Of a stretch of 64,000 nucleotides of DNA, positions 1-7,288 are shown in pieces (the first letter of the stretch is position 1; every line of letters begins with the position of its first letter). Source of the DNA: Flavobacteriales bacterium. GTDB lineage: Bacteria > Bacteroidota > Bacteroidia > Flavobacteriales_D > Crocinitomicaceae. Location: assembly GCA_947470515.1 (NCBI GenBank), contig CANITF010000008.1, positions 1 through 64,000 on the forward strand, in the 5' to 3' direction. Both the position numbers and the translations under genes were made by a program. The notes beneath the pieces were generated by a model, which saw only the letters and a program-made list of their open reading frames with translations, was not told where the DNA came from and searched no databases.

Positions 1-31
1 ATTTGCTAGAGCTATCAAGTCCCTACGGGAC
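1..31 (-). repeat. REP-like palindrome, left copy, inverted
   Basis: The palindrome GTCCCTACGGGAC (5-bp stem, 3-nt loop) at 19-31 is preceded by ATTTGCTAGAGCTAT at 1-15. This is the reverse complement, with small changes, of the copies at 244-274 and 960-992, so the transposase gene at 404 lies between inverted copies. The element may start before the window. Confidence 0.7.
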
Positions 32-150
32 TTTTGTTCTTTAAAAAAGATGTTGTTTTTAGCATTTTTTTTATCATGAATATTGAATTTACATGATATT
101 TTGGGATGTGTATTTGGGCTTTTATGAACTTCAATAAAATTGAATTAATT

Positions 151-200
151 TTTGTTTGTTTGTTTGTTTGTTTGTTTGTTTGTTTGTTTGTTTGTTTGTT
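151..200. repeat. (TTTG)n microsatellite, 12 copies plus TT
   Basis: A perfect tetranucleotide tract of 12 TTTG units starts at 151 and ends with a partial unit at 200. It lies in non-coding DNA between the left REP-like palindrome and the transposase gene. The open frames across it translate only to monotonous repeats on either strand and are not believable genes. Such tracts are prone to slippage. Confidence 0.85.
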
Positions 201-243
201 CAGTTTTGGAATGCATTTACTATTGTTTTTATTGTGGGTATCT

Positions 244-308
244 GTCCCGTAGGGACTGCATAGCTCTAGCAAATGGTTTTCCATTTGCGATATTGTCCCT
301 TAGGGACC
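244..308 (+). repeat. REP-like palindrome cluster upstream of the transposase
   Basis: GTCCCGTAGGGAC at 244-256 is followed by TGCATAGCTCTAGCAAAT up to 274. A second hairpin follows, with arms GCAAATGG (269-276) and CCATTTGC (281-288). A third palindrome, GTCCCTTAGGGAC, lies at 295-307. The first unit matches the copy at 960-992 in orientation and the copy at 1-31 in reverse. Confidence 0.7.
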
Positions 309-403
309 ATGCAACATTTCGATTATTTGTAAAATATCGGGTTATTGTATCAAAAAATAATCGTATCTTCAGTTAGAAACTTTTATACATCAATAATTAT
401 TAA

Positions 404-865
404 ATGCCAAACACCTACACCCAAATTTACATTCAATTTGTATTTACTGTGAAATACAGAAATGGAGTAATAGAAAAGCATTGGAAAGATCAGTTATATA
501 AATATATTACAGGAACTGTAAATGCTTTGGGACATAAATTAATTGCAATAAATGGGTTGGAGGATCATATACATATTTTAGTTGGATACAAACCAGTTCA
601 ATCTTTTTCAGATTTGATGAAAGCAGTAAAACAAAATTCATCTAAATGGATTAATGATAACAATTTCACGAAAAGAAAATTTGAATGGCAAGAAGGTTAT
701 GGTGCTTTTTCCTATGGTCAGTCTCAATTATCTAGAATTGTAAAATACATTGACAACCAGGAAATACATCATAAAAAAACAACATTCCTTGATGAATACA
801 TCACCTTTCTTGAAAAATTTGAGATTGATTACAGTGAAAAATATATTTTTCAAGAATTGATTTAA
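404..865 (+). CDS. IS200-like / RAYT-type Y1 transposase
   Basis: A 153-aa single-strand DNA transposase of the HUH superfamily (Y1 transposase, IS200/IS605 TnpA fold). The HUH metal-binding pair is H55-I-H57. The likely nucleophile is Tyr115 in a Y-x-x-x-Q helix motif (Tyr115, Gln119). Length and the motif around FEWQEGYGAFSY are usual for the intact Bacteroidota family. It stands alone, flanked by short palindromes at 1-31, 244-307, 911-923 and 960-992. That arrangement suggests either a single IS200-like element or a domesticated REP-associated transposase (RAYT). No tnpB follows. The gene looks complete; I cannot tell whether it is active. It starts at ATG after an AT-rich leader with no Shine-Dalgarno sequence. 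Confidence 0.88.
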   Translation: MPNTYTQIYIQFVFTVKYRNGVIEKHWKDQLYKYITGTVNALGHKLIAINGLEDHIHILVGYKPVQSFSDLMKAVKQNSSKWINDNNFTKRKFEWQEGYGAFSYGQSQLSRIVKYIDNQEIHHKKTTFLDEYITFLEKFEIDYSEKYIFQELI

Positions 866-910
866 CTTATTATTTTATGAAAATTCTATTTGATTTTTTT
901 TTACTCAATA

Positions 911-1002
911 GTACCTAAGGGACATTTGTGATACTAAATAATTTCATTATACAACTAATGTCCCGCAGGGGGACTGCATAGCTCTAGCAAATTTCAATTT
1001 GC
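911..1002 (+). repeat. REP-like palindromes downstream of the transposase
   Basis: A degenerate palindrome GTACCTAAGGGAC at 911-923 is followed by GTCCCGCAGGGGGAC with the TGCATAGCTCTAGCAAAT arm at 960-992. A small hairpin, GCAAAT-TTCA-ATTTGC, closes the element at 987-1002. It matches the copies at 1-31 (inverted) and 244-274 (direct). Confidence 0.7.
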
Positions 1003-1028
1003 AGAGTTTTTGGGAATGGAATGAATCC

Positions 1029-2399
1029 TTAAAACCGTATAATTTCAATTTTTTCGTTTTTGCGTAAGAATAAATTCAAGATTGTTCGTGCGTCACGATC
1101 TTCTGTCGATTGCTCGATATACCGTTTCCATTTAAAAATTGGCTGATTCTGGAAGTTGAAGTGAGCAAACCCAAAACCAACGATAGAACCACGTTCAATT
1201 AAAACAAGGCTCTTTTCGCTTTTATTACGCCCTTTATCTACAATATAGAAGCTGTCACCATTAAAACTTAAATCATTCAGCAGACGTTCTACTTTTGCAT
1301 TGTAATCAATTGCCGTTTCTTCTTGAACACAAGCACCATTACATTTCTTGATAGAATGGTGAAAACATGCTGCTTTTGTTGGGTATAATTCACACAATTT
1401 CTGGCATAAATTATATTGTTCCACCATTCGTTCTAAATGTAAAACACCTTCTTTCTTTGATGAAAAACTTAAGAATGGAATTTCTGTCCTTTTTGATGTT
1501 AAACTGAGATGTAAACGCAAATAGCCATTGTCATCTAAATAATCGAACAAGCCATAAGGAAAGCGACTCTTTTTTAATTGATGATTATAAACTGGAGTAT
1601 GGTGTTTTATTAATTGAGATTCCTTGAGTAAGGCAATTAATTCTGAACCTGTCAAATCGTATTCGATACGTGTAATTTCACCACGCATTTGAATCCCCTT
1701 TTTGGTTTTGGTATTGCGTAAATGCTGGTCAACACGGTTCTTTATTTGCTTGCTTTTTCCGATATAAATCAATTGATTGAATTCATTGTAAAATTGATAA
1801 ACTCCAGTTTTACTTGGAATTTCGTCTAAAACTTCTAAATCTAAATTCGGGTGTAATATTTTTGGATTTACTTCTTGTTGAATGAACGTTTGCAGATTCG
1901 CTGCGTCCTTTTCAATGAGCATTGTGAATAAATGCGCTGTTGCCAACGCATCACCTCCAGCTCGGTGTCGACCAATAATTTCAATTCCTAAACTTCGTGA
2001 TAATTTGCCTAAACTATACGAATCTAAACCTGGCAATACATAACGAGAAGCGCGAACTGTGCATAAATGTGGACGACGAAAATCAAATCCTAAAGATTTA
2101 AATTCATGCCGTAAAATACCATAATCAAAACCAACATTGTGGGCAACAAAAATACATCCTTCCGTAAATTCAATTATTTGCTTTGCTATTTCGTAGAATT
2201 TTGGCTGATTTTCAACCATGCGATCACTAATACCAGTTAAGCGCACAATAAACTCAGGGATTTTCATTTCAGGATCTACCAAACTCGAAAATTCATCGAT
2301 AATAGAAACACCGTTATGCTTATAAATAGCAATTTCGGTAATTTTGGAGGCTTTTGGACTTCCTCCGGTTGTTTCTATGTCGACAATTACGTAATCCAT
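1029..2399 (-). CDS. DEDDh 3'-5' exonuclease fused to UvrC-like GIY-YIG nuclease
   Basis: A 456-aa fusion. Residues 1-165 are a DnaQ/PolC epsilon-type exonuclease: ExoI DIETTG (D7, E9), ExoII around AHNVGFD (86-92) and ExoIII H145 with D150 of the DEDDh class. Residues about 195-275 are a GIY-YIG nuclease domain as in UvrC/Cho (G199-V-Y201 and Y212-I-G214). The remaining ~180 residues hold several cysteines (CQKLCELYPTKAACFHH) and resemble the Cho/UvrC-associated region. Homologues of this architecture are annotated as exonuclease domain-containing proteins and are thought to act in DNA repair; the exact substrate is unknown. Start is ATG at 2399. It stands alone and is transcribed away from the DUF4476 gene. 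Confidence 0.88.
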   Translation of the reverse strand: MDYVIVDIETTGGSPKASKITEIAIYKHNGVSIIDEFSSLVDPEMKIPEFIVRLTGISDRMVENQPKFYEIAKQIIEFTEGCIFVAHNVGFDYGILRHEFKSLGFDFRRPHLCTVRASRYVLPGLDSYSLGKLSRSLGIEIIGRHRAGGDALATAHLFTMLIEKDAANLQTFIQQEVNPKILHPNLDLEVLDEIPSKTGVYQFYNEFNQLIYIGKSKQIKNRVDQHLRNTKTKKGIQMRGEITRIEYDLTGSELIALLKESQLIKHHTPVYNHQLKKSRFPYGLFDYLDDNGYLRLHLSLTSKRTEIPFLSFSSKKEGVLHLERMVEQYNLCQKLCELYPTKAACFHHSIKKCNGACVQEETAIDYNAKVERLLNDLSFNGDSFYIVDKGRNKSEKSLVLIERGSIVGFGFAHFNFQNQPIFKWKRYIEQSTEDRDARTILNLFLRKNEKIEIIRF

Positions 2400-2482
2400 A
2401 TTCGAGTTCTAATTTACAAATATTTCAATGTGTGATGAAGGTTTTAAAGCTTTCTTTTGAAAATTGGAGAGAAACGTTTAAC

Positions 2483-2499
2483 TTGGCACTGTTATAGCA
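2483..2499 (+). promoter_or_regulatory. Candidate sigma-54 (-24/-12) promoter
   Basis: TTGGCAC followed by five bases and then TAGCA gives the invariant GG-N10-GC spacing (GG at 2485-2486, GC at 2497-2498). It differs from the RpoN consensus TTGGCACG-N4-TTGCA by the unmatched G and one T-to-A change. It lies 26 bases before the ATG of the DUF4476 gene. No TAnnTTTG box is apparent in this gap. Confidence 0.4.
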
Positions 2500-2524
2500 A
2501 AAGCGACCGAAAAAAAATAAACCT

Positions 2525-3865
2525 ATGAAAAAAATAACTACCCTTTTATTCTTATTGATTGGCCTTGCGTCTTTCTCCCAAAGTAATTTAACCATTTTTA
2601 ATAATGGTGGACAACAATTTTATGTTATCCTGAATGGTATCAAACAAAATTCTGTACCAATGACAAATGTGTCTGTTGGTGGAATTAAAAACGGTTCTTA
2701 TTCTGTAAAAATGATTTTTGCCGATGGAAAAACAGCTGATATTGATAAAAATTTCTTCATTGATGCACCGTCAGATATTACAACTCGAGTTATTTTCAAG
2801 AAAGGAAAAGGAAAATTACAATTGATTGGAATGGAGCCAACTATTGGAGCAAATACAGCACAAGGTGTTATAACGTATCGTCCAGATAATACAGCAATAT
2901 ACAGTGATGCTGTTACAACACAAACTGTTACAACACAACAAACTACAACGACAACTAATTCTGGCACAACCAACGGATCAAACGGAAATGTTGCCATTAT
3001 CCAAAGTGGGAATACACAATCTGGGTCGACTCAAAATGGTTCTGTTAATATGAATGGGACAATCAATACAAATACAAGTGGTCAAGGAGTGAATCAAACA
3101 GTAACGGTAACTGATCCAAATAATCCCAATGGAAATGTTAACATGAATATGAATGTGAACGGCACAATCAATACAAACGGTCAGGCGGTGAACCAAACTG
3201 TTACAGTTACAGATCCAAATAATCCAAATGGAACTGTTGGAATGAATGTTTCAATCAATGTTTCTGATCCTCAAATGGGCGGGGAAAATGTAAACATGTC
3301 TGTGAATATGAATGGAATGGGCACAGATACGCAAACGAATGGAGAAAATGTAAACATGTCTGTGAATATGAATGGAATGGGAGCAGGAACTCAGACAAAT
3401 ACAAATACGACCAATACAAATAATCAATCAAACCAAGGAAATACGCAGTATTCACAAAACACGACTGTGACAACTACGACCACCACCACAACGTCAGGAA
3501 CTCAGACAAATAATACTGCTGTCAATACAAACAACACGAATATTAATACTTCTACGAATACTGTTCACCCAGTTGTAACGTGTAAAAACATCGTAAATGA
3601 CGAAAATACATTTATTACAGAAATGAATTCCATCATGATGGATGATGAGAAAACGGAATTTATTTTATCTCAATTGACTAATTTTTGTTTAACGGCAAGT
3701 CAAGCATATAAAATTACCGAAGTTTTGAAGTTTGAAGATGACCGATTGGTTGTTGCGAAATTTTTGTATGATAGAATGATCGACAAAGACAAATCAAATT
3801 CTTTATTGCCATTGTTTAAATTTGACGATTCAAAAATGGAATACGCAGCTTATTCGAGAAAGTAA
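2525..3865 (+). CDS. Secreted DUF4476 protein with Asn/Thr-rich repeats
   Basis: A 446-aa exported protein. Residues 1-19 form a Sec signal peptide ending SFSQ. Residues 20-110 look like a small beta domain. Residues ~120-350 are low-complexity Asn/Thr/Gly sequence with internal repeats (NVNMSVNMNGMG twice; VTVTDPNNPNG twice). The last ~95 residues (from CKNIVNDENTF) match the DUF4476 domain, a Bacteroidota family of unknown function. Two identical 38-bp DNA segments (3284-3321 and 3344-3381, 60-bp period) underlie one repeat, indicating recent duplication. It ends just before a bidirectional terminator shared with the convergent PspC gene. Function unknown. Confidence 0.8.
   Translation: MKKITTLLFLLIGLASFSQSNLTIFNNGGQQFYVILNGIKQNSVPMTNVSVGGIKNGSYSVKMIFADGKTADIDKNFFIDAPSDITTRVIFKKGKGKLQLIGMEPTIGANTAQGVITYRPDNTAIYSDAVTTQTVTTQQTTTTTNSGTTNGSNGNVAIIQSGNTQSGSTQNGSVNMNGTINTNTSGQGVNQTVTVTDPNNPNGNVNMNMNVNGTINTNGQAVNQTVTVTDPNNPNGTVGMNVSINVSDPQMGGENVNMSVNMNGMGTDTQTNGENVNMSVNMNGMGAGTQTNTNTTNTNNQSNQGNTQYSQNTTVTTTTTTTTSGTQTNNTAVNTNNTNINTSTNTVHPVVTCKNIVNDENTFITEMNSIMMDDEKTEFILSQLTNFCLTASQAYKITEVLKFEDDRLVVAKFLYDRMIDKDKSNSLLPLFKFDDSKMEYAAYSRK
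3284..3381 (+). repeat. 60-bp-period coding tandem repeat
   Basis: Identical 38-nt segments at 3284-3321 and 3344-3381 encode ENVNMSVNMNGMG twice. They are separated by a 22-nt non-identical spacer encoding TDTQTNG. A looser repeat family (TDPNNPNG) lies just upstream at about 3094-3240. Confidence 0.75.
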
Positions 3866-3900
3866 TTTGCCAAATTCTGAATTCCAAATTCCGAATTAAA

Positions 3901-3940
3901 AAAAAGGTGGCTCATGTTAAAATGAGCCACCTTTTTTTTT
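3901..3940. terminator. Bidirectional rho-independent terminator
   Basis: Stem GGTGGCTCAT (3906-3915) and ATGAGCCACC (3922-3931) with a 6-nt loop. An A-tract precedes it and a T-tract of nine follows, so it can end both the DUF4476 gene (+) and the convergent PspC gene (-). Confidence 0.92.
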
Positions 3941-5483
3941 AGTCATGATGGTTGTATTCTCCATCGTTGTTGAGAACACCATGTTCTTCGTAGTTTTCAT
4001 CAATGATTTCTTCGTTGAATTCATCTGATCCTAGGCGAATAATTTGTCGGTTTATTTTGACTGATTTCCCTTCAGGAATTTCAATGATAATATACACTTC
4101 TTGGTCCCTTAATTTGTCGCTCATCGGGAAGGAATAATAGGCATTCACATTCAAAACAGTACTATCTAATGAAATTGAATGTTTGATGTTTTTAGCTTTA
4201 GCAACAGCCATTCTGTTTGACTGAGAATGCGCGCTTAAGTTTTGTCTGACGTGAAATAAACTGTCTTCCGATAAACAGTATTCAAAATGAATTCCTCCTT
4301 CTTCGATATTTTCACCTTTAATCGCTATGAAATTGAAATCATCGTCAGTTTTCACTTCAAAAGTCCCCGTTTTTCTGTTGTTTGAATGATGCGTTTGAAT
4401 GACTAATTGTTCGCACTGAACGCTGCCAACTAAGCGTTCGATTTCACCTTCATTTGTCATATCACGTCCAGTTTTTAGACCGATGAAAACACAAATAATT
4501 GCTCCAATAAATCCGGATAAAAACAGCAATATTAAAGCACGTTTCGACCATTTATTGTGAATCTTGAAAACGATTTTAATTCCCAATAGCAACATAAAAA
4601 AGATAGCAGATAACCCAACTGTTAATCCACCAATCCAGGCCATGGAATTATCACTTTCATCCGACAAAACTAGGTTACTTAAATCAGAAAGTGAGAGAAA
4701 ACCATTATCGCTTTGAACGGGAATAAATTGTAAACCAGCAGCTCCAAAGATTAATAGTATCACTAGCCAAAACAAGCCGGAAAGAATCAATCCAGTCCCA
4801 AAAAGCACAGAAATTAAGCGTCCAATTGAACTTACGCGTTTGTGAATAGTGTCATCATTTCTCAAGCGATTTGAAATTTTATTCGTCTCTTTTGTCAAGC
4901 GATTACCAGCATTTTCGACTTCTTCACGAACGCTGTCAACTGTAATCGCTTTTCCACGCATGCGTAATTTATCGATTGTAGAATTTGCCTTTGGAACAAT
5001 TACCCAGAGAATGATGTACAAGGGGAATCCAAATCCTCCGAATAAAAACAGCAAGATGAAGAACGCGCGAATGATGACCACATCAATCTTGAAGTAGTTG
5101 GCTATTCCGGCGCAAACTCCTGCGATTGTTGCATTATCGACATCCCGAAACAAATGTCTGTCTTTATTTTTGGCTCCATCAAACGGTTCTTTCGAAAATG
5201 TAGTTTTTGAGCTTTCTTCTTCGTCAATGTATTGAGAAGGATCACCCAATGTTTCCAAAATCGATTTGATATCCTCAATTTCGATTACTTGTTTTTTATC
5301 GTTGAGTATTGAAGTGCACAATTCTGCAATGCGCAATTCGATGTCTTCAACGATTTCTTTGTTTCCTTTTTCGTTGCGCAGACCATGGTTCAAGCGATCC
5401 ATGTAATCTTGCAACAATTCATAGGCATCTTCTTCGAACAGGAAATTCATTCCTTTGATGTGAATGGAAGTTGTCTTTTTCAT
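3939..5483 (-). CDS. PspC-domain membrane protein
   Basis: A 514-aa inner-membrane protein. Residues 1-90 are a soluble helical region. Residues 109-167 form a PspC domain (AGVCAGIANYF then a hydrophobic helix ending WVIVPKA). Two to three further membrane segments follow at roughly 220-340. The C-terminal ~160 residues are a beta-rich soluble region. PspC-like proteins sense or respond to membrane stress. The gene starts one base after the stop of the PadR regulator at 5485-5820, so the pair forms one operon; PadR-PspC pairing is a recurrent Bacteroidota arrangement. I infer that the regulator controls its partner. The exact signal is unknown. Confidence 0.85.
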   Translation of the reverse strand: MKKTTSIHIKGMNFLFEEDAYELLQDYMDRLNHGLRNEKGNKEIVEDIELRIAELCTSILNDKKQVIEIEDIKSILETLGDPSQYIDEEESSKTTFSKEPFDGAKNKDRHLFRDVDNATIAGVCAGIANYFKIDVVIIRAFFILLFLFGGFGFPLYIILWVIVPKANSTIDKLRMRGKAITVDSVREEVENAGNRLTKETNKISNRLRNDDTIHKRVSSIGRLISVLFGTGLILSGLFWLVILLIFGAAGLQFIPVQSDNGFLSLSDLSNLVLSDESDNSMAWIGGLTVGLSAIFFMLLLGIKIVFKIHNKWSKRALILLFLSGFIGAIICVFIGLKTGRDMTNEGEIERLVGSVQCEQLVIQTHHSNNRKTGTFEVKTDDDFNFIAIKGENIEEGGIHFEYCLSEDSLFHVRQNLSAHSQSNRMAVAKAKNIKHSISLDSTVLNVNAYYSFPMSDKLRDQEVYIIIEIPEGKSVKINRQIIRLGSDEFNEEIIDENYEEHGVLNNDGEYNHHD

Positions 5484-6030: not shown

Positions 6031-6127
6031 GATCAGCACTACTTTTGAAATGGACGAATTTATTGTTTAGAAATTTGGAGTAGTGGCGGTTAGCGATAAG
6101 TTATGCATAAATATACTCAAACCCAAT

Positions 6128-6520
6128 ATGAATTATTTACGATTATATTTATTACTGTTATCTGTTAGTCTTTTTTCATGCAACAATGTTGGATTTGTTG
6201 TAAGAATGAATAATAAATTCACAAAAGATTATCGAGAAAAAGGATACAATATTTATTCAGCTGAACAAGTAATTTCGTATGGTGGAGATAGTGTAGAATG
6301 CACATTCAAGAAAAATTTTCGACGTCTAAACAATCTTATTCCTATTGACTCAACGTTTTGGTGTAAGTATTATATTACTTATGATTATTTCAATAAAATG
6401 CAGGAATTTGTTGAGAAAGGAAACGCTAAAAAAGTCAAAAACCTTGATATTATTAGTGAAAATGAGTATCAAAGAATAAAACGACATTTTGACTCTTTAC
6501 AAATATTAAAGTATGAATAA
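6128..6520 (+). CDS. Small predicted lipoprotein, unknown function
   Basis: About 130 aa from the ATG at 6128. This start is chosen over 6083 because it places a classical lipoprotein signal (hydrophobic stretch YLLLLSVSLFSC, lipobox Cys about residue 18) at the N-terminus. The mature part is basic, Lys/Asn/Tyr-rich, with no domain I recognise. It is a single-gene island between AT-rich DNA and an attC-like inverted-repeat element at 6537-6661. Both flanks carry GTTAG motifs (6077-6082 and 6658-6663), so it may be a mobile cassette. Function unknown. Confidence 0.55.
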   Translation: MNYLRLYLLLLSVSLFSCNNVGFVVRMNNKFTKDYREKGYNIYSAEQVISYGGDSVECTFKKNFRRLNNLIPIDSTFWCKYYITYDYFNKMQEFVEKGNAKKVKNLDIISENEYQRIKRHFDSLQILKYE

Positions 6521-6536
6521 AACTGATCTATGCATA

Positions 6537-6663
6537 ACACACGCCTTGCAAAAAAGCCGAAATTTGAGTACCGAAAAACAATAAAGTATAAAATTTTCGA
6601 TTTATGGACGCAAAAAATATTAATTTTAAAAATCGGCTTCTTCGCAAGGCGCGAAAACGTTAG
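6537..6663 (+). repeat. attC-like 125-bp imperfect inverted repeat
   Basis: The left arm begins TAACACACGCCTTGC and continues through AAGCCGAAATTT. The reverse complement of the right arm reads TAAC, about 8 extra bases, then GCGCCTTGCGAAGAAGCCGA and TTTTT. The element runs from TAAC to CGTTAG, with an AT-rich centre of about 65 bp. TAAC...GTTA ends, extra-helical bases in one arm and overall length resemble integron attC sites (for example Vibrio VCRs). The core bases do not fit GTTRRRY perfectly and no integrase is in the window, so this is a structural resemblance only. Confidence 0.45.
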
Positions 6664-6690
6664 TGGTAATGATGCCCAAAGTATAATATT

Positions 6691-7029
6691 TTGAGTGAAA
6701 AGCGAAATACAAAATGGATAATTGAGCAATCAAAACTACTTTTTGGTGATAGTTTTGATTATCAAGCTACCGAATATAGGGATGCAAAAACTAAAATCAA
6801 TTTTCGTTGTAAAAAACACGACTATTCATTTGAACAAACCTCAAATAATCATCTAAATTCAAAACATCCTTGTAAATTCTGTCTTCAAGAATCACGACGC
6901 GAAGCGCTCTCTGATGGTATTGATATATTCAAGAATAAAATTCAAGCAATTTTCGGTGACCAATTTGATTTTAAGAATGCAAATTACATTAATCAAAGAA
7001 TTCCCAAAAGAATGCATCGACAAAGGTGA
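6691..7029 (+). pseudogene. Truncated zinc-ribbon repeat protein gene (5' part)
   Basis: The frame opens at a TTG (6691) after the AT-rich TATAATATT and encodes about 100 meaningful residues. One complete unit has FGDSFDYQATEY, then a zinc-ribbon-like set of Cys/His ligands (C-x-x-H followed by C-x-x-C). A second unit starts again (FGDQFDFKNANYINQR) but is cut after NQR and runs into unrelated sequence. Proteins with this unit are common in phage and mobile regions (DUF723-like, my recollection). The frame is joined near 7000 to a fragment of a cyclase gene in another frame, so I read it as the broken 5' remnant of a longer gene. Confidence 0.55.
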
Positions 7030-7288
7030 ACTTTACTTTGAATGTAGGCTCGGTATCAATACTGGGGAGGTAGTCGCAGGAGTAGTCGGTACAAAAAAGT
7101 TTGCATACGACATCTGGGGCGACACGGTAAATACCGCCAGCAGGGCAGAAAGCAACGGCTTGGTAGGTAAGGTAAATATTACCGAAAGCACCTACGAATT
7201 GGTAAAGGACATCTTCAGATGTGAATATCGAGGCGACATCGAAGTCAAAGGTAAAGGACAAATGAAAATGTATTTTGTATTAGAGTAA
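7000..7288 (+). pseudogene. 3' remnant of a class III adenylate/guanylate cyclase
   Basis: About 85 residues match the C-terminal half of a class III nucleotidyl cyclase catalytic domain: RLGINTGEVVAG, KKFAYDIWGDTVNTASR (containing the conserved Asn and Arg of the active site) and the terminal VKGKGQMKMYFVLE. The N-terminal half with both metal-binding aspartates is absent. The open frame upstream (6914-7000) belongs to the zinc-ribbon gene in a different frame. Base composition here is visibly richer in G and C than the flanks, suggesting different ancestry. It cannot encode an active cyclase. Confidence 0.7.

Follow-up and report, generated by a model that had tools for sequence, protein, structure and literature searches.

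The insertion domain of IntI is treated as a hallmark of integron integrases. Inverted integrons, such as those of Treponema, differ in that the integrase gene and the cassettes share a direction, and their integrases are likewise IntI with the insertion. Loot et al. (cited in PMC12690207) reportedly described, in 2024, the SALIN or attG type of insertion, in which an attC cassette enters the chromosome. In PMC9668308 the additional domain of IntI is reported to be necessary for integron recombination, and at least one survey (PMC8352920, which also names "inverted IntIs") gathered integrases by a profile of this domain; such a survey would miss any system that lacks the domain. The Bacteroidetes integrons on record have IntI according to PMC9024848, first an In0 and then a complete one (Salinibacter ruber). 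In the open-access literature, with preprints and most subscription journals lying outside it, we found no description of a class-level integron system without the IntI domain.

The window analysed here is a stretch of 64,000 nucleotides (G000:C8:1-64000) from a 2.99-Mb draft genome in 58 contigs, 99.94% complete. We conclude that the cassette in it is very probably a stray member of an integron-like exchange system of the Bacteroidia, served by a XerA-like recombinase without the IntI insertion. Like IntI integrons (classes 1-3 and chromosomal), this system has a tyrosine recombinase beside an attI and arrays of one-gene cassettes in a single orientation; its attC hairpins carry R and L boxes separated by unequal spacers, cassette boundaries fall at G^TT, and cassette starts are complementary to their own R''. 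It departs from them in an integrase that lacks the IntI insertion (64-65 vs 106 aa from the catalytic K to HxxR) and carries an N-terminal extension of ~95 residues, in an integrase gene co-oriented with the array, in its attI consensus (TATAwAcAA^GTT) and in the narrow range of attC length. The shared direction of integrase gene and cassettes is that of the Treponema inverted integrons, from which the system is again set apart by the missing insertion. In sequence and fold the recombinase is nearest to XerA/XerC-like enzymes (PDB 5hxy, 4a8e); unlike these, it is tied to cassette arrays and groups with IntI in a tree. The window cassette, and another on contig C15 of the same genome, resemble SALIN or attG insertions in being single attC cassettes at a chromosomal GTT with no adjoining integrase, but here they belong to a system without IntI, and the insertion point in the window resembles attI as well.

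The window cassette and its boundaries

Judged by its sequence, the stretch from 6101 to 6659 is a real one-gene cassette of integron type (Table 1). An earlier note on this DNA had described an imperfect inverted element with unequal arms and had proposed that this attC-like element closes a one-gene cassette lying between two recombination points. The unequal arms are present, with a spacer of 3 nt between R'' and L'' vs 7 nt between L' and R', and the proposal is borne out on all three counts: the hairpin has R and L boxes, a single ORF is enclosed, and the recombination points at the two ends match. The left end had to be moved: the motif GGTTAGCG, placed by the note at about 6077 and taken as the left recombination point, lies further to the right, and complementarity puts the point itself at 6100/6101. 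There, GTTATGCATA (6100-6109) is exactly complementary to TATGCATAAC (6529-6538), the cassette's own R'', and we therefore set the left boundary at G6100^T6101. Each of the two sequences occurs once in the window, and a 10-nt match between start and R'' is expected by chance 0.005 times within 5 kb upstream. Because the first bases and R'' pair in the whole site, complementarity of this kind would mark a formerly circular cassette.

Table 1. Coordinates of the cassette and neighbouring features in the window
Feature	Position	Strand	Remarks
Gene cassette, complete, 559 bp	6101..6659	+	TTATGC to ...AAAACG; 10-nt complement of start and own R''; 3' hairpin
Insertion point 5' of cassette, ends ...GATAAG	6067..6100	+	attI-like or attG-like; crossover presumably G6100/T6101
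Cassette ORF, 130-aa lipoprotein-like protein (MNYLRLYLLLLSVSLFSCNN...)	6128..6520	+	single ORF of cassette
attC site	6529..6666	+	R''/L''/L'/R' boxes; variable middle ~6561-6630
R'' box GCATAAC	6532-6538	+	window attC
L'' box CGCCTTGC	6542-6549	+	window attC
L' box GCAAGGCG	6644-6651	+	window attC
R' box GTTAGTGG	6659-6666	+	window attC
GGTTAGCG	6088-6095	+	motif of the earlier note; no cassette boundary
Probable truncated second cassette	6660..7029	+	begins TTAGTGGTAAT, as other cassette starts do

Under a de novo rule that combines a start/R'' complement with a hairpin, no other site in the window scored as high for its hairpin (15, runner-up 11), and 20 block-shuffled windows yielded one match scoring at least 13. 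A covariance model described below likewise recognised one significant attC in the window. The 130-aa protein had no match in Pfam or NCBIfam, an Rfam scan of the window gave nothing at the gathering threshold, and a tRNA scan of the window gave no hit. No recombinase ORF was seen near the cassette among the ORFs of the window, and the locus thus shows the SALIN feature of a lone attC cassette that no integrase adjoins.

Comparison with a relative, G005, bears on the insertion point. The two loci are 87% identical up to 6085 and keep ATAAGTT at equal spacing, after which the DNA differs, suggesting that the same point took different DNA in two species. The target, with the ATAAGTT common to G005, resembles attI, copies of which in the own genome read GGCGGTTATATATAAG^TTA. 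A plain attI copy was considered and rejected, as conserved consensus positions differ, and because of these mismatches we class the insertion point as attI-like or attG-like.

The probable second cassette contains a broken ORF (6691-7029), and its own R'' (ACCACTAAC) is missing from the 64,000-nt window. A piece at 6914-7288, overlapping that ORF, reads like the C-terminus of an adenylate/guanylate cyclase and appears to be gene debris.

Cassettes elsewhere in the genome and its relatives

A BLAST search with the window element returned three more copies in the genome (E values 9e-26, 2e-23 and 5e-16), two of which lie 1.4 kb from each other on contig C50. This contig carries an array of seven attC sites, mostly with single ORFs in between; C16 holds three more. 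A covariance model trained on the 11 sites of C50, C16 and the window gave 16 matches in the genome at E<0.01, namely the 11 training sites and five new ones. The earlier note had looked to multiple cassettes in the genome for support and to a unique element for its refutation. The 16 sites, mostly in arrays on other contigs, supply the former, and together with the three BLAST copies they dispose of the latter. The model matched at E<=0.01 in 34 of 60 relatives, the own genome counted in: 25 of the 26 within the genus, the exception being G013 (85% complete), and 9 of the 34 outside it. Over 25 loci it recognised 75 attC sites in addition to the one in the window.

Complementarity between a cassette start and its own R'' provides a test that works without the hairpin arms. 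The comparison took in 48 pairs of neighbours separated by less than 4 kb, leaving aside two wider gaps and those pairs whose start could not be read. In these the complementary run averaged 7.31 nt vs 4.55 nt for shuffled pairings, which reached at most 5.29 over 2000 shuffles. Runs of at least 8 nt were found in 27 of the 48, a set that includes poor pairs down to 1 nt. In one relative, a cassette of ~8.6 kb lies between two attC sites (L144:1521-10115, reverse strand), with a start/R'' complement of 9 nt.

Cassettes could also be followed between genomes. A 1.87-kb cassette, 88% identical in the two, lies directly 3' of an attI copy in G000 (L033:8006-9873) and 3' of an attC in G005 (L129:13873-15741); the match starts at GTTAGGCAC and continues past the cassette for 12 nt, into the start of the following one (GTTAGCAGTAAT), so that the block ends at GTT. 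On C15, a single 669-bp cassette sits between two chromosomal genes. Its site is empty in G007, where the alignment is ungapped over the junction, and also in G005, there with a small deletion inside short repeats, and the insertion is free of target duplication. As historical evidence, the start/R'' complements, together with one cassette found in two contexts with exact ends, indicate that array cassettes have moved as units.

In three pairs of gene-sharing cassettes (L131:5097-5802 and L135:4617-5319; L134, reverse, 1549-2281 and L141:6945-7682; L127, reverse, 1-4666 and L130:5229-9899), the match runs through R''AAC and one further base, after which the attC arms diverge. The arms look as if exchanged separately from the genes, which the simple model does not predict.

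Short motifs were poor guides to these sites. A scan for attC right ends by themselves gave mostly chance matches; the short pattern GTTANNNATAAGTTA with one mismatch was unspecific (33 matches vs 125 in the reversed control), and the 12-mer ATATATAAGTTA taken singly was weak (5 vs 3 matches). The 86-nt leader was specific, with 3 places. An attI-like leader followed by two hairpins was seen at the head of several G000 arrays (C16:53924, C21:51494, C28:39868 and, in reverse, C50:6148), one of which alone has a recombinase; none was seen beside the heads on C16, C21 and C50. The first hairpin of the leader differs on both arms between C16 and C21.

The recombinase and its arrays

The earlier note had asked for an IntI-type integrase. 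A recombinase does adjoin some arrays, but it is not of IntI type: the IntI profile gave nothing over its curated cut-off in the own genome, and the sub-threshold matches were to other tyrosine recombinases. The best of these, on C28, is a tyrosine recombinase of 374 aa; an attI-like leader and a cassette start follow 0.87 kb downstream of it. Its homologues precede co-oriented arrays in G005 (97% identity), G015 (46%) and G026 (53%, another genus). Between recombinase and attI lies a Bro-N gene in C28 (by Pfam) and in G005 (by eye), two genes in G026 (by eye) and none in G015.

The protein scored 224.4 bits against the XerA model of NCBIfam (NF040815), over the cut-off of 220, which gives it a name and not a function, and 192 bits against the IntI model TIGR02249, under the cut-off of 265. 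The IntI-specific additional domain is absent from it. The catalytic K and HxxR are 64-65 aa apart in all 80 loci, likewise in all 27 measured of a second set of 30, and 106 aa apart in the 26 IntI measured (from 31 loci, of which three had no ORF by motif and two no distance). Aligned with IntI4 (2a3v), only 19 of its residues face the stretch 181-242, so that ~43 residues are absent. R232, K257, K260, H321, R324, H347 and Y356, the catalytic residues of tyrosine recombinases, are invariant in 25 of 25 aligned sequences, and the N-terminal extension spans ~95 residues. The predicted structure (mean pLDDT 86, pTM 0.50) matched XerA with Z 23.9 (rmsd 13.4), a XerC-like archaeal enzyme with Z 20.6 (rmsd 8.0) and IntI4 with Z 20.4 (rmsd 4.8).

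As the outgroup branches of a first tree were long, a smaller and more careful tree of 35 rows was made. In it IntI (100/99) and the array recombinases (93/93) form a clade each, and the two stand jointly apart from the Xer rows (99/91). Since there are only three of these rows, two of them long, the placement of the recombinase clade as sister to IntI against Xer is provisional, a lead and not a result.

A contig scan with four recombinases gave at least 594 stretches, the best 80 of which were taken as Bacteroidota loci; one of them, L171, stands in a record labelled as an Azoarcus MAG and is probably a mis-binned Bacteroidota contig. The de novo rule, with a 9-nt start/R'' complement, found 144 sites on the same strand in 307 kb downstream of the recombinase vs 11 in 710 kb upstream. 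The downstream minus strand was tried as a control and dropped at 126 matches, since the rule is nearly palindromic, and the upstream side was used in its place. Where at least 1.5 kb lies downstream (42 of the 80 loci), the first cassette begins 60-140 nt past the recombinase stop in 32 and cassettes are chained head to tail in 23; the other 10 have none at the expected place, 4 of them without any downstream site. Over all 80 loci, 37 first-cassette junctions fall 84-103 nt past the stop and share TATAwAcAA^GTT, with TATA at -9 to -6 conserved in 36, 37, 37 and 36 of the 37 and A at -1 in every one. An attI beside the integrase gene is thus recognisable by position and by sequence.

A further 40 loci, some from organisms already sampled, comprised 20 lower-scoring copies, 10 of them with cassettes downstream, and 20 higher-scoring copies, of which 13 had them; upstream of the recombinase there was no match in any. 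In the seven higher-scoring misses merely 94-721 nt follow the gene; among the 10 lower-scoring misses, five have ~2.6 kb or more downstream and still no cassette.

The inner length of 126 de novo attC sites is narrow, with a median of 118 nt, and the fold is stabler on the bottom strand in 100 of 125 and on the top strand in 24; the sites have paired R''/R' and L''/L' boxes. By eye, the L'' and L' arms of the 126 sites (L145-L224) often differ at one position, which pairs as a T-G wobble when the top strand folds and leaves an A-C mismatch when the bottom strand does.

Mechanism, alternatives and occurrence

Cassette anatomy, the position and consensus of attI, chaining, exact block ends and the one cassette at a site empty in relatives are what the DNA itself offers; we infer the recombinase as the acting enzyme, the bottom strand as its substrate and a crossover within GTT. 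The integrase of the system is probably the enzyme without the ~41-residue IntI insertion, and the missing part would account for the system having been overlooked in surveys. By analogy with integrons, it would bind the folded bottom strand of the attC of a circular cassette and exchange strands, at G^TT, with the attI that follows the recombinase gene, as a rule at ~100 nt from the stop codon, an accessory gene intervening in C28 and G005. Replication would resolve the product, arrays would grow in the orientation of the integrase gene, and excision would be the reverse reaction between two attC sites. Cassettes may also land elsewhere, singly or a few in a row, where attI-like or non-att DNA offers a G^TT, and the window cassette would be one of these. 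The system would work like an integron, yet, because the defining IntI domain was looked for and is absent, it does not belong to the IntI integrons.

The recombinase profile (E<=1e-90) matched 116 of 296 Bacteroidia genomes, 107 of them with a single match, and the gene-collecting system seems to be widespread in this class. These counts bear on an improbable alternative, in which ordinary IntI integrons of other bacteria left the cassettes behind as relics (CALIN/SALIN) and the presence of the XerA-like recombinase nearby is a coincidence. The own genome has no IntI, integrase-less attC clusters are common elsewhere (PMC9024848), and donors exist, as IntI was over the cut-off in 85 of 296 genomes of a phylum sample, only one of them listed in class Bacteroidia. 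However, canonical IntI was over the cut-off in only 1 of the 296 Bacteroidia genomes, the stop-to-cassette spacing of 84-103 nt is near-fixed and the site conserved at 37 loci, and arrays also follow recombinases merely 46-53% identical to that of the own genome.

We consider it more improbable still that the recombinase serves the cell as its housekeeping Xer, with the leader as a dif-like site exploited by cassettes in the manner of IMEX. XerA is its best NCBIfam match (224 bits) and XerA structures are the closest, but an enzyme found in 116 of 296 genomes is not universal, it adjoins cassette arrays, the tree groups it with IntI apart from the three Xer rows (99/91), and other tyrosine recombinases of the own genome could act as Xer. 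The hairpins are palindromic, ~118-135 nt long and multi-copy, as dispersed repeats or terminators without a role in recombination would be, but such a role-free origin is the least credible of the three, since cassette starts complement their own R'' box, arrays chain, blocks end on GTT and an empty site exists.

Against our own reading of an exchange system run by the XerA-like recombinase stands the absence from this enzyme of the domain reported as necessary in PMC9668308. The 10 of 42 loci that lack a first cassette at the expected place, the five lower-scoring loci with ample downstream sequence but no cassette, the lack of a recombinase beside the window cassette and the C16, C21 and C50 heads, and the differing attC arms of gene-sharing cassettes also count against it. 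We lean slightly towards the broader view that the Bacteroidia have an integron lineage of their own, in which the IntI insertion was never present or was lost, that recombination of a folded single strand may need no such domain, and that a clade sister to IntI may show a step from Xer to IntI. Which part of integron recombination truly requires the IntI domain thereby becomes a testable question. About four in ten of the sampled Bacteroidia genomes have the recombinase, and if the system is active, this entire class has a cassette pool that is still uncharted.

Contig ends add a further observation. On the 3' side of minus-strand recombinase copies the contig ends less than 700 nt away in 19 of 63 cases, vs 3 of 62 for plus-strand copies at the contig end on the 5' side (Fisher p 0.0003), and five contigs (L196, L211, L217, L323 and L325) stop a few bases from the attI crossover. 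Strains differing in their first cassette would break an assembly at attI.

The cassettes themselves number 126, with a median size of 807 bp, and in 103 of the 110 with an ORF of at least 50 aa the longest ORF is on the array strand. Among 30 cassette proteins scanned, 21 had no Pfam match at E<=0.001, and among the domains matched by the remainder are RES, EcoRI-type methylase and lipocalin-like ones. Five of seven long cassette proteins, picked for their length, match PADLOC defence models, including those for type IIG restriction enzymes and the Orf5/SspE/HEC models. The first cassette of G026 (~L144:10115-11056, reverse strand) seems to carry a RelE/HigB-like gene paired with an HTH gene, by its look a toxin-antitoxin pair.
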